The notes under the pieces were generated by a model, which was given only the letters and a program-made list of their open reading frames with translations, did no database searches and was not told the origin of the DNA. The position numbers were made by a program, and so were the translations under genes. This document shows, in pieces, positions 1-3,213 of a stretch of DNA of 5,653 nt (position 1 is its first letter; each line of letters opens with the position of its first letter). The stretch comes from an uncultured Flavobacterium sp. (lineage in GTDB: Bacteria; Bacteroidota; Bacteroidia; Flavobacteriales; Flavobacteriaceae), in contig CAMLKV010000169.1 of the NCBI GenBank assembly GCA_946480635.1, positions 1 to 5,653 of the forward strand, in the 5' to 3' direction.

Positions 1-151
1 AATAATTTGCGCATTATTTATTATCTTTACTCTCACTTCATGTGGTCCTCATCGTATGAAATGCGGACCCCGAAGATGTGAAATAAAAAATCAAAACAAT
101 CATAATCATGAAAAAAATAGTTTTACTGTTACTAACGCTAGTATCGTTTAG
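1..151 (+). CDS. Small Cys-rich lipoprotein, 3' part only
   Basis: The frame beginning at base 2 is open to a TAG at 149-151 and is cut by the left window edge. The 49 visible residues begin with a hydrophobic stretch (IICALFIIFTLTSC) ending in a lipobox-like LTSC, so C14 of the visible part would be lipidated. The pattern CGPHRMKCGPRRC follows, placing C14, C21 and C26 in two similar CGP units, and then a polar, His/Asn-rich tail. That order (signal peptide, lipobox, short Cys/Arg motif) is hard to get by chance in such a short stretch. I have an impression of similar tiny lipoproteins in flavobacteria but cannot confirm it. The function is unknown; metal or thiol chemistry is only a guess from the cysteines. 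The last 44 bases overlap the next gene in another frame, which is unusual, so the true C-terminus may differ if there is a sequence error or frameshift. Confidence 0.55.
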   Translation, partial: IICALFIIFTLTSCGPHRMKCGPRRCEIKNQNNHNHEKNSFTVTNASIV

Positions 152-437
152 TGTAAGCGCACAAGAAAAAAAGAAAGAAATCAAAGATCAAGTTGTAGAA
201 GCATCTTGTGGTCAATGCAATTTTGGAATGACTTCAAAAAAAGGATGTGATTTAGCAGTAAAAATAGATGGCCATTCGTACTTTGTAGAAGGAACAAAGA
301 TTGACCAACATGGGGATGCACATGCTGAAAATGGATTTTGCAATGCTGTGAGAAAAGCAAAAGTTAGTGGCGAAATCAAAAATGATAAAATTATAGCAAC
401 TGATTTTGCATTGGTTGACGAAAAAACAAAAAAATAG
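108..437 (+). CDS. Small exported Cys-containing protein (DUF6370-like)
   Basis: The 109-residue product begins with a classical Sec signal peptide: MKK, then a hydrophobic core to about residue 16, with a likely cut after SVSA (residue 18). The mature part starts QEKKKEIK. A CGQC motif (C34, C37) in the context EASCGQCNFGM is followed by C47 and by a second block HGDAHAENGFCNAVRKAKVSGEI carrying H68, H72 and C78. The overall pattern resembles the flavobacterial DUF6370 family, some members of which I recall carrying implausible enzyme names. The fit comes from memory and not from a search. No catalytic function is known to me. The spaced cysteines and histidines would suit metal binding or a structural disulfide in the periplasm, which is inference. 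ATG at 108 gives the intact signal peptide. The gene lies 3 bases before the Crp/Fnr gene, so the two are probably cotranscribed. Confidence 0.85.
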   Translation: MKKIVLLLLTLVSFSVSAQEKKKEIKDQVVEASCGQCNFGMTSKKGCDLAVKIDGHSYFVEGTKIDQHGDAHAENGFCNAVRKAKVSGEIKNDKIIATDFALVDEKTKK

Positions 438-440
438 TTC

Positions 441-1016
441 TTGAACCTTCTTCTAGAAAACATAGCAAAACACGTTTCACTCACTTCACAAGAGCAGGAA
501 CGTGTTTTATCTTTTACAGAACCTTTACAATTCAAAGCTAAAACCATACTTCTTAAATCAGGTGAAGTTTGTACCCATTCCTATTTTGTAACCAAAGGTA
601 TTATTCGTAGTTATAACATGGATGAAAATGGTGTCGAACATGTAGTAAGTTTTGCTTGTCCGGGTTGGTGGATTGCCGATATGTATAGTTTTCTATCACA
701 ACGCCCAGGCCAATTATACATCGAAGTGAACGAAGACGCCGAAGTCCTTGCCATATCTAAAGAAAATCAAGAAAAAATGTATTCGGAAGTTCCTAAACTA
801 GAACGTTTCTTCCGCATTATCATAGAAAACTCCTTAGTTGCGAGCCAGCAACGTCTTATCGACAACATGAGCTTTACTGCCGAAGCTCGTTATGATAAAT
901 TCCTTAAAAAATTTAACGATTTGGCACATTGCATTCCTCAAAAGCAAATTGCCTCTTATATAGGAGTAACTCCTGAATTTTTCAGTAAAATGAAAGCGCG
1001 ACTTTTGAAGAAATAA
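441..1016 (+). CDS. Crp/Fnr-family transcriptional regulator, TTG start
   Basis: The 191-residue protein has an N-terminal cyclic-nucleotide-binding-type beta-roll (about residues 20-110; landmark LLKSGEVCTHSYFVTKGIIRSY at 37-58). A dimerisation helix follows (about 112-145), then a short winged-helix end (about 148-191) with IPQKQIASYIGVTPEFFSKMK, the usual HTH region of Bacteroidota family members. The phosphate-binding cassette of true cAMP receptors (FGE...RxA) is not visible, so the ligand is probably not cAMP. C44, C73 and C164 do not form an FNR iron-sulfur pattern. The start must be TTG 441: an in-frame stop, which is the stop of the previous gene, lies at 435-437, and the next ATG (619) would delete half the sensor domain. 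Spacing to the upstream gene is 3 bases, suggesting translational coupling. Its likely targets are the two palindrome-containing promoters downstream (inference). Specific regulator name unknown. Confidence 0.92.
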   Translation: MNLLLENIAKHVSLTSQEQERVLSFTEPLQFKAKTILLKSGEVCTHSYFVTKGIIRSYNMDENGVEHVVSFACPGWWIADMYSFLSQRPGQLYIEVNEDAEVLAISKENQEKMYSEVPKLERFFRIIIENSLVASQQRLIDNMSFTAEARYDKFLKKFNDLAHCIPQKQIASYIGVTPEFFSKMKARLLKK

Positions 1017-1062: not shown

Positions 1063-1121
1063 TTTCTTAATCTAGGTTAAGTGTCCGCCCCTACCTCCTA
1101 TCATAACTTTGTCCTATCAAA
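1063..1121 (+). promoter_or_regulatory. Promoter of the pirin gene, copy 1 of a shared module
   Basis: The core is TAACTTTG at 1104-1111, matching the Bacteroidota -7 consensus TAnnTTTG. No TTG box is found at the usual 17-23 base distance upstream; the palindrome at 1066-1081 sits there instead, which suits an activator-dependent promoter. The spacer 1083-1101 is strikingly C-rich for this region. An estimated start of transcription near 1116 leaves a leader of about 17 bases before ATG 1133. Bases 1063-1082 are identical to 1993-2012, and bases 1102-1121 match 2032-2051 at 18 of 20 positions. Confidence 0.75.
1066..1081. promoter_or_regulatory. Operator palindrome, copy 1
   Basis: CTTAATCTAGGTTAAG equals its own reverse complement at 14 of 16 positions, with CTTAA/TTAAG arms and a CTAG centre. 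The centre (1073.5) lies 30.5 bases before the TAACTTTG box, about -42 from the estimated start. That is the usual class II activator position for Crp/Fnr proteins. Binding by the regulator encoded at 441-1016 is inferred from proximity and dyad size, not shown. Confidence 0.68.
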
Positions 1122-1132
1122 ATGAACAAGTT

Positions 1133-1990
1133 ATGAACCGAAAAGATTTTATCCGAAAAGTAGCTTTAGGTAGCGGAGCAATTCTAACAGGAACTGCTTT
1201 AGCTAAAAAAACTACAGAATCCGAAAAAGAAGCCATCGGATTCAATCACATCCAAAACACAAATTCAAAAATTATGGAAAATATCGTTTTACACAAAGCA
1301 GACACACGCGGTAATGCTAATCATGGTTGGTTACAAAGTTTTCACACCTTTAGTTTTGCTAATTATTTTAATCCAGAGCGAATGAATTTTGGAGTACTTC
1401 GAGTACTTAATGACGACACCGTTTCTGCTGGAATGGGTTTTGGCAAACACCCGCATCAAGACATGGAAATCATCAGTATTCCGCTTGAAGGTGATTTAGA
1501 ACACCAAGACAGTATGGGTAATAAAACTGTGATTAAAAATGGTGACATTCAGGTTATGAGTGCCGGAACTGGAGTACAACACAGCGAATACAATAAAAAT
1601 GAAGATAAAGCCGTAAAATTTCTTCAAATTTGGGTTATTCCTAACAAAAAAGGGGTTACTCCACGCTATGACCAAATTACTCTGAATCAAGAGGATCGTC
1701 ATAATAAATTACAGCAAATCCTATCTCCAAACGCAGATGATGCTGGAGTTTGGATTCATCAGGATGCTTGGTTTCATTTAGGAAAATTTGATAAAGATTT
1801 CACAACTGAATATACTTTTAAAAAAGAAGGTAATGGGTTGTATGTTTTTGTATTAAATGGAGATATAACAGTTGGTGGACAAGTTTTAAACAAAAGAGAC
1901 GGTTTAGGAATTTGGAATACTGAAAATGTAACTATCAAAGCAGATTCTGATGCTGAATTTTTGTTAATGGAAGTTCCAATGAATATCTAA
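1133..1990 (+). CDS. Pirin-like bicupin (YhaK type) with N-terminal extension
   Basis: The 285-residue product belongs to the pirin family of bicupins, metal-binding proteins of which some show quercetin 2,3-dioxygenase activity. From residue 48 it follows the YhaK-type pattern: ADTRGNANHGWLQSFHTFSFANY, then HPHQDMEII (H106, H108) and TGVQHSE (H150, E152), which together give the four expected metal ligands in the N-terminal cupin. The C-terminal cupin is about residues 180-285. Residues 1-47 are extra compared with typical YhaK (about 233 residues). They begin NRKDFIRKVALGSGAILTGTALA, resembling a Tat signal but with RK in place of RR, so export is uncertain. ATG 1133 was chosen because an upstream in-frame TTG (1109) lies inside the promoter core. 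ATG 1274 (M48) would give a plain 238-residue cytoplasmic pirin. The gene has its own promoter, matching that of the following YceI gene. Natural substrate unknown. Confidence 0.9.
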   Translation: MNRKDFIRKVALGSGAILTGTALAKKTTESEKEAIGFNHIQNTNSKIMENIVLHKADTRGNANHGWLQSFHTFSFANYFNPERMNFGVLRVLNDDTVSAGMGFGKHPHQDMEIISIPLEGDLEHQDSMGNKTVIKNGDIQVMSAGTGVQHSEYNKNEDKAVKFLQIWVIPNKKGVTPRYDQITLNQEDRHNKLQQILSPNADDAGVWIHQDAWFHLGKFDKDFTTEYTFKKEGNGLYVFVLNGDITVGGQVLNKRDGLGIWNTENVTIKADSDAEFLLMEVPMNI

Positions 1991-1992
1991 AA

Positions 1993-2051
1993 TTTCTTAA
2001 TCTAGGTTAAGTATCTGAATAACAACCTCAACATAACTTTGCCTTATCAAA
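1993..2051 (+). promoter_or_regulatory. Promoter of the YceI gene, copy 2 of the shared module
   Basis: TAACTTTG at 2034-2041 fits the TAnnTTTG -7 box, again with no TTG box at the usual place and with the palindrome 1996-2011 in its stead. The module begins 2 bases after the pirin stop, so the YceI gene has its own initiation site, although readthrough from pirin is possible because no hairpin separates them. The spacer 2013-2031 has the same length (19) as in the pirin promoter but a different sequence, so the conserved blocks look constrained and not merely recently copied. Estimated leader to ATG 2082 is about 35 bases, A-rich near the start codon. Confidence 0.75.
1996..2011. promoter_or_regulatory. 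Operator palindrome, copy 2
   Basis: The 16-base near-palindrome CTTAATCTAGGTTAAG is identical to that at 1066-1081, with the same 30.5-base distance from its centre (2003.5) to the TAACTTTG box. Identity extends to 20 bases (1993-2012). It is a probable binding site of the nearby Crp/Fnr regulator (inference). Confidence 0.68.
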
Positions 2052-2081: not shown

Positions 2082-2612
2082 ATGTCAACAACAAAATGGT
2101 CAATAGACCCAACACACTCAACAATAGGTTTTAAAGTAAAACACATGATGTTTACTAATGTATCTGGAAAATTTGAAAACTATGATGCAAACATTGTGAC
2201 AGAAGGTGACGATTTTACAAAATCAAACATTGAATTTTCTGCAGATATCAATTCTATTGATACTCGTAATGCAGACCGTGACAATCACTTAAAAAGTGCT
2301 GATTTCTTTGATGCAGAAAATCATCCAAAAATGACATTCAAAGCATCATCATTAACAAAAATTGATGATGAAAACTACGAAATTGCAGGAGATTTATCAA
2401 TGAGAGGCGTAACCAAGTTCGTAAAACTTCCAGCAGAATTTAGCGGATTAATGACTGATCCATGGGGTAATACTAAAGCAGGTTTAAATATTTCAGGAAA
2501 AGTAAACCGTAAAGATTGGGGATTAAACTGGAACTCAGCTTTAGAAACTGGTGGTGTTTTAGTAAGTGAAGATGTAAAGTTAGATATCGAATTACAATTA
2601 ATTAAACAATAA
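2082..2612 (+). CDS. YceI family protein
   Basis: The 176-residue protein spans the full YceI domain, a lipocalin-like beta barrel that in characterised members binds long lipophilic molecules such as polyisoprenoids. Visible landmarks are WSIDPTHSTIGFKVKHMMFTNVSGKF (6-31), NADRDNHLKSADFFDAENHPKMTF (63-86), GDLSMRGVTKFVKLP (103-117) and NRKDWGLNWNSALETGGVLVSEDVKL (142-167). There is no signal peptide, so unlike E. coli YceI it should be cytoplasmic. ATG 2082 is the first start after the promoter, and the WSIDPTHS motif begins four residues into the usable N-terminus, as is common for the family. Its promoter matches that of the pirin gene, so both are expected to respond to the same signal. 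In other bacteria YceI and pirin genes are often tied to stress or redox responses; here that is only a suggestion. The bound ligand is unknown. Confidence 0.95.
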   Translation: MSTTKWSIDPTHSTIGFKVKHMMFTNVSGKFENYDANIVTEGDDFTKSNIEFSADINSIDTRNADRDNHLKSADFFDAENHPKMTFKASSLTKIDDENYEIAGDLSMRGVTKFVKLPAEFSGLMTDPWGNTKAGLNISGKVNRKDWGLNWNSALETGGVLVSEDVKLDIELQLIKQ

Positions 2613-2898: not shown

Positions 2899-3213
2899 AT
2901 GGACAATTCTGCACAAATAATTGTAGACTATAAGCTTAAAATCTTACTTATATCTAAAGGAATAATTGATAAAATGCATACATTTTACTATAAGAATATA
3001 GATAATGAGCCCTCTCTTGAAATCTCAAATCGATTTAAAGATCTCTTTAGTTACGAAATTGAAAAGTTTGAGCATGAATATGCAAGGGTTATTCCTCCTG
3101 AGCTAAAAAACTCACCTTTTGATTTTATTCCTTACAATTTTTCATTACGCTTATTAATAGATTTAAAAAAAGAATACATTTATCTTATTGAAAAAATTAA
3201 CGAAAAAGAGTAA
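2899..3213 (+). CDS. Hypothetical protein, 104 residues
   Basis: I do not recognise this protein. It has no signal peptide or convincing transmembrane helix. It is rich in Lys, Glu, Ile, Tyr and Phe, contains no cysteine, and looks mostly helical, with two probable amphipathic helices at about residues 6-35 and 82-103 joined by a segment containing VIPPELKNSPFDFIPYNF (64-81). The Pro/Phe-rich middle and charged C-terminal helix look like a real folded protein and not random translation. ATG 2899 is the natural start, with an A+T-rich upstream region and no Shine-Dalgarno site, as for its neighbours. It stands alone between a terminator upstream and a weak hairpin downstream, so it is probably monocistronic. 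It could be a lineage-specific gene. Confidence 0.6.
   Translation: MDNSAQIIVDYKLKILLISKGIIDKMHTFYYKNIDNEPSLEISNRFKDLFSYEIEKFEHEYARVIPPELKNSPFDFIPYNFSLRLLIDLKKEYIYLIEKINEKE

Follow-up and report, generated by a model that had tools for sequence, protein, structure and literature searches.

How two matching, promoter-like modules come to stand before two neighbouring genes of a flavobacterium, and which protein reads them, is the question raised by the DNA analysed here. The window, that is, the whole stretch of 5,653 nucleotides from an uncultured Flavobacterium sp. (contig CAMLKV010000169.1), shares 94% identity with Flavobacterium terrae across its first 2.6 kb. An earlier note had seen in the modules a defined operator of a flavobacterial regulon, and the analysis supports that view, with a regulon larger than the pirin and YceI genes from which it started.

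The gene cluster and its two modules

The genes of interest all lie on the plus strand in the order DUF6370, Crp/Fnr protein, pirin and YceI, with one operator directly upstream of each of the two target genes. The Crp/Fnr-family regulator (crp, 441..1016, TTG start) is the candidate binder of both operators, and the targets encode a pirin or quercetinase-like protein (1133..1990, ATG at 1133; PF02678 and PF17954) and a YceI-family protein (2082..2612; PF04264). The gene for the DUF6370 protein (108..437, from the open reading frame list and a domain scan) stands directly upstream of crp and is possibly carried on the same transcript. Its cysteine-containing product has a signal-like N-terminus, and the gene adjoins crp also in loci L099-L101 and, where crp is missing, pirin in L254 and L259; the protein may be linked to the signal of the regulon. 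Further downstream, the window's open reading frame at 2899-3213 (104 residues) gave no Pfam or NCBIfam match. The pirin of the window's clade starts with what looks by eye like a twin-arginine leader, MNRKDFIRK (1133-1210), which is missing from the pirin of the johnsoniae group (a label of this analysis), and pirin may thus be exported in one clade only.

The 20-mer at 1063-1082 is repeated exactly at 1993-2012, 930 bp further on, and contains in both copies the 16-base near-palindrome CTTAATCTAGGTTAAG, with 2 mismatches against its own reverse complement. Operator 1 accordingly occupies 1066..1081, before pirin, and operator 2 occupies 1996..2011, before yceI. Exactly 19 bases past each 20-mer, at 1102 and 2032, begins CATAACTTTG, from which point the two modules match at 18 of 20 bases; the 19-base spacers, on the other hand, agree at 5 of 19 positions. 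The -7 boxes TAACTTTG lie at 1104..1111 for the pirin promoter and 2034..2041 for the yceI promoter, and the palindrome is centred 30.5 nt upstream of the box in either copy. The repeat, the shared stretch after the fixed gap, the diverged spacers and the distance from palindrome to core had all been pointed out in the earlier note, and each was recovered as described there.

The two-module repeat is far above chance. When up to 3 mismatches are allowed, the window contains 4 strand matches to CTTAATCTAGGTTAAG, whereas 200 dinucleotide shuffles average 0.14 and none of them reaches 4. A chance repeat was therefore rejected, the more so as the operators are conserved in relatives. Two exact copies within one window might also suggest that a promoter was recently duplicated, or that the repeat is structural and devoid of regulatory meaning. 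This is vanishingly improbable, as the modules recur across many species, before several gene families and at distant loci, and their spacers differ; it is this conservation on which chance, duplication and a non-functional element alike were rejected.

Conservation of the operator and its spacing

A total of 80 Flavobacterium-type loci was fetched with the Crp protein as the query, and not with the palindrome. Together with the window, these loci hold 157 consensus sites CTTAAYCTAGRTTAAG on the gene strand, all with a TAnnTTTG downstream, and the distance between the two is 22 nt at 156 sites and 21 nt at one. Read on the opposite strand, 125 of the 126 sites in the same sequences have no TAnnTTTG within 60 bases. 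A site at the 22-nt spacing is present in every one of the 81 sequences, and 74 of them have two or more. Among the seven single-site sequences, the fetched stretch stops at most 1.4 kb from the site in three (L026, L064, L066), the other site has a 21-nt spacing in one (L065), and the remaining three (L006, L010, L013) have one site each by the pattern used. Among the 143 strict sites of a broader collection, gathered with patterns that themselves limit the spacing, 128 stand at 22 nt and 15 at 21 nt. The flanking C is found in 134 and the flanking G in 109 of these 143, the TTAA arms being fixed by the search pattern. Many of the sites stem from closely related species, and relatedness inflates simple tests on such counts.

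The arrangement of the genes varies more than the operators do. In the johnsoniae group, crp is mostly 5-7 kb from pirin, and the operators are still kept. One stretch of this kind (L099, 3118-8018) holds isocitrate lyase and malate synthase between crp and pirin, along with a helix-turn-helix regulator with an ScfRs-type C-terminus (Pfam). In F. enshiense (L102, 7797-8406), a divergent second yceI has an operator of its own, CTTAACCTAGGTTAAG. Across nine whole genomes, all 18 exact palindromes sit in the pirin-yceI cluster. The exact palindrome seldom occurs beyond the closest relatives: of 299 family-sample genomes, 9 have it. A tighter pattern matched in 32 of 395 genomes of the order sample, against 3 control hits. 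Two loci (L290, L291) carry weaker operators and boxes: the operator reads CTTAATATAGGTTAAC and the box ends in A, not G. The earlier note had tied its claim to the presence of the palindrome before pirin and YceI orthologues of related species, where it was indeed found; the claim thus withstood this comparison.

Promoter geometry and the -33 place

A published start-site map of F. psychrophilum places the TAnnTTTG box at -12 to -5 (PMC9723704). Carried over to the window, this position predicts 5' ends at about 1116 for pirin and 2046 for yceI, with the palindrome centred near -42.5 and overlapping the -33 place, close to the value near -41.5 expected for a class II site.

Whether the operator takes the place of a -33 element, as had been proposed, was addressed by comparison with 165 other TAnnTTTG sequences standing before genes in the same loci. 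A TTG is found 17-23 nt upstream in 79 of these 165 and at 2232 of 16000 random positions, against 1 of 156 regulon promoters. When the count is confined to 17-19 nt, which lies wholly in the regulon spacer, the figures are 9 of 165 and 1 of 156. In the other 70 of the 165, the TTG stands at 20-23 nt only, exactly where the last bases of the operator stand. The downstream arm of the palindrome thus covers these TTG positions, and the proposal holds. The near-absence of TTG from the regulon promoters follows from the operator's occupying the -33 place, and the contrast therefore shows where the operator lies and not an independent loss of the -33 element. The missing TTG is accordingly weakened as an independent sign of activation, the operator's own bases filling those positions.

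The class II position suggested earlier is close to the predicted distance, and the activation read from it stays a prediction: an operator near -42.5 with one arm on the -33 place suggests activation. A site over the -33 region could also block the polymerase, and the adjacent Crp/Fnr protein might bind the palindrome as a repressor released by an inducer, much as repressors (MhqR, QsrR/YodB) control the quinone-detoxification regulons of Firmicutes, whose enzymes are in part similar (PMC6798810). However, the operator arm leaves no standard -33 TTG at these promoters, from which a low basal strength would be expected, and the near-fixed spacing between operator and box fits a contact between protein and polymerase. 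A repressor is thus unlikely, and a class II activator is the preferred reading.

The Crp/Fnr protein and its link to the operator

The protein encoded at 441-1016 belongs, judging by its domain and its profile alignment, to the Crp/Fnr superfamily and is not FNR proper. Its N-terminal cyclic-nucleotide-binding beta-roll matches PF00027 (E 3.8e-12, 46.4 bits against a cutoff of 27.5), and its profile aligns through the C-terminal domain, a winged helix-turn-helix, of FNR chains and of 3dn7; the Pfam scan of the protein reported no HTH domain. The closest solved relative is 3dn7, a cyclic-nucleotide-binding regulatory protein (E 4.1e-39, Crp residues 4-187). A two-fold symmetric operator with the 14-16 bp arm geometry of the superfamily is likewise present. 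FNR proper carries an N-terminal cysteine cluster for an iron-sulphur centre; the 191-residue Crp protein aligns only from FNR residue 42 or 53 and lacks a match to that cluster. CRP proper binds cAMP; against the CRP equivalog model, the candidate scores 33.7, the cutoff being 266.

An orthologue of this protein (56-99% identity, the next-best matches reaching at most 44%) occurs in 40 of 61 genus genomes. A strict composite site is found somewhere in the genome in 37 of these 40 against 1 of the 21 without the orthologue, as tallied by hand (Fisher p 5.5e-12, kinship ignored), and the site in that sole exception precedes an RNase HII gene. A relative of pirin-1 is present in 60 of the 61 genomes, the weaker ones at 48-51% identity, and the difference in sites is therefore not simply the absence of a target. 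Three genomes have the orthologue and no strict site. In two of them (G341, G366), TTGA replaces TTAA promoter-proximally and the recognition helix of Crp has Arg, not Lys; in the third (G353), the only pirin found is a fragment, on a short contig.

The residue concerned is Lys183 of the window's protein (codon 987..989), a recognition-helix position which covaries with the operator half-site in the alignment. Its counterpart in FNR chains is the Arg of the recognition helix TVETISR, residue 213 in E. coli FNR. Among 95 distinct orthologues compared with their own pirin promoters, 91 combine Lys with a promoter-proximal TTAA and 4 combine Arg with TCAA (the TTGA half-site), one of the four Arg rows (L299) having been entered by hand. 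A one-residue switch change accompanies a one-letter operator change. Both traits change 3 times on the tree, and the pair test cannot become significant, because well-supported branches force only two of the K/R changes. A codon search for TPEFFSRM across 398 genus genomes, which detects this exact string and misses Arg orthologues with other neighbouring residues, returned exactly four genomes (G341, G366, G886, G895). Of the same 398 genomes, 38 gave matches to the corresponding operator search, 43 in all, and one pirin operator of each Arg genome is among them; of the eight matches examined, four stand beside orthologues, three beside a more distant Crp and one before a GNAT gene. Among the best 120 relatives in a protein search, 113 carry TPEFFSKM and five carry TPEFFSRM. 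The R-type helix was also matched in G205 of the family sample, but the protein is a 38% relative whose 3-kb locus has no pirin or yceI match, and it was not counted.

The rule is one of the orthologues and does not extend to every Crp. That Lys always means TTAA had to be rejected, since ten distant crp neighbours carry Lys with TTG half-sites; in three other Crps (39-41% identity), Lys is paired with one half of each kind, TTAA and TCAA. Three further crp genes of the family sample (L121, L123, L124) lie directly upstream of an exact palindrome and another gene, which encodes an MFS transporter, a DJ-1/PfpI protein or an unnamed protein.

A change of regulator is also matched by a change of operator. 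The gene before pirin encodes a different Crp (35-38% identity) in ten loci, where a CTTGTCCTAGTTCAA-like palindrome is centred 29 nt before the box at 13 of 13 sites, against about 30 in the window type. In one of these loci (L240), the modules before pirin and yceI again match each other. The -7 boxes of the ten loci read CA/GAnnTTTG and are weaker still, which argues further against repression. Neither operator was found in the seven fetched pirin loci whose stretch contains no crp, one of which (L253) has a pirin of only 51% identity.

These observations also bear on the possibility that the palindrome is bound by another regulator, be it a Crp/Fnr paralogue, an HxlR protein near one hydrolase target or an AraC protein beside the yceI of the johnsoniae group. 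Candidates of this kind do exist: at E <= 1e-30, as many as 8 Crp-like matches occur in a single genome, the hydrolase of L108 is preceded by an HxlR gene, and next to yceI in L099 is an AraC-type gene (Pfam), with similar genes in the same place in L100 and L101. However, no HxlR or AraC match was obtained among the eight window proteins scanned, and either regulator would leave unexplained the covariation with the helix of the adjacent Crp, the swap of operator with the swap of Crp and the absence of operators where no crp is near. A different binder is thus very unlikely. The palindrome is most likely bound by the Crp/Fnr protein of 441-1016, the adjacent gene product for which the modules very probably provide the binding sites.

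The probable target genes

A relaxed composite pattern matched 117 times in the 61 genus genomes, against 19 matches of the reversed control pattern. The gene counts that follow cover only the fetched loci, which include part of the pattern matches of the genus and order samples. These loci contain 121 sites, 120 of them with a called downstream gene, of which 108 are strict. As many as 100 of the 108 strict sites precede seven recurring families: pirin-1 (34), pirin-3 (11), pirin-2 (8), cytoplasmic YceI (17), secreted YceI (4), where the two YceI types rest on N-termini judged by eye, an alpha/beta hydrolase (14) and a VOC-family protein (12). Five more strict sites each precede a single case, namely two GNAT types, a nitroreductase, a DJ-1/PfpI protein and a 104-residue protein; the labels for PfpI, nitroreductase and the 96-residue GNAT each denote a single protein matched to itself. 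The last three precede unrelated genes (L124, L134 with RNase HII, and L165). The genes behind 8 of the 12 non-strict sites belong to none of the target families. The VOC protein, presumably kin to ring-cleavage dioxygenases, reaches the Pfam glyoxalase/dioxygenase model and falls below every NCBIfam cutoff, for which reason its reading as a ring-cleaving dioxygenase is a guess.

Other conserved stretches were seen alongside. A second promoter-like one, TTAACTTATTTTAACTAAATAGTTC..CAAAACTAACTATTTTTG, occurs at L161 549-593 and in similar form in G366, G320, G347, G311, G355, G335 and G321; the gene behind it (L131, L161, L162 and, as a variant, L146) encodes a CGSY(Q/K)N(S/T)S protein, and the stretch is probably under a different regulator. 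The operator-search matches across the 398 genus genomes also yielded a conserved ATAACATACATCAAATTA...TAATATGCCGCAAGTAGCTTTG-like stretch (G739, G924, G945, G1026, G967, G781, G831, G311, G894, G930, G539) and one like ATAACATAAATCAACTT...ACTACTTTTG or CTTACTTTTG (G986, G1034, G361, G007, G768, G893).

A model for the regulon

It is quite probable, on the evidence of the DNA and its relatives, that both modules are activator-dependent sigma-A promoters bound and activated by the Crp/Fnr protein of 441-1016. What the sequences establish directly is the operator with its spacing and its overlap with the -33 place, the set of genes behind it and the covariation of regulator and operator. A dimer of this protein would bind CTTAAYCTAGRTTAAG through CTTAA/TTAAG arms around a conserved CTAG-like centre. 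The site lies some 42 bases before the predicted start and covers the -33 place with its downstream arm, and the bound dimer would probably act like a class II activator, bringing RNA polymerase to the TAnnTTTG box. The targets would be pirin and yceI in the window and, across Flavobacterium, further pirins, YceI proteins, the alpha/beta hydrolase, the VOC-family protein and small GNATs, with the nitroreductase or DJ-1/PfpI protein as single cases. Going by family names only, the likely role of such a regulon would be defence against reactive aromatic or electrophilic compounds.

A more ambitious version of the model, for which the balance is even, holds that a dedicated Crp/Fnr activator runs an electrophile- or quinone-type detoxification regulon, that Lys or Arg at the position of FNR Arg213 sets TTAA or TTGA and has flipped at least twice, and that part of the genus uses a different Crp with its own palindrome for the same genes. 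If true, this would offer a natural series for testing the joint evolution of regulator and operator. Changes in the DNA preference of Crp/Fnr proteins could be studied on a set formed by the link of K/R to A/G and the second, parallel regulator pair. Moreover, a candidate regulator, an operator, a promoter geometry and a target list come together here, in genomes where Crp-like proteins are numerous, and pirin and YceI, both poorly understood, gain a regulatory context in common with the hydrolase and the VOC-family protein.

Relation to known systems

In terms of gene content, the nearest parallels are the MhqR and QsrR/YodB quinone regulons, which comprise partly overlapping enzyme types (ring-cleavage dioxygenases, alpha/beta hydrolase, nitroreductase) and employ MarR/DUF24 repressors, in contrast to the Crp/Fnr candidate here; pirin goes without mention in the text of the source (PMC6798810). 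No MarR or DUF24 repressor was matched among the eight window proteins scanned, and the regulator that covaries is a Crp/Fnr protein. The structure listing of 3dn7 names neither a function nor an operator. A literature search on the motif strings, and on Crp or Fnr with flavobacterial or Bacteroidetes terms, found no description of the system, with the slash in the spelling 'Crp/Fnr' a way for papers to escape it; a motif string turned up in an unrelated phage-display paper.

At the level of DNA recognition, the PrfA box, TTAAC-N4-GTTAA, is a Crp/Fnr-family site which, compared by its motif alone, has TTAA arms in the same 14-bp frame as the operator described here. PrfA is, however, a different protein with different targets. 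The E. coli FNR box is TTGAT-N4-ATCAA, and class II sites are centred near -41.5. The present system resembles class II FNR and CRP in the arm spacing (TTRAY-N4-RTYAA), the register of the recognition helix and the predicted location of the site centre. It differs from FNR in the middle base, which is A and not G, in the Lys in place of Arg at the matching helix position, in the profile alignment, which includes no N-terminal iron-sulphur region, and in a -7 box of the Bacteroidota type. Taken together, the regulator and its operator appear to constitute a variant of Crp/Fnr control, apparently one that has not been described before, in which the operator, at what looks like a class II promoter, stands in the place of the -33 box.
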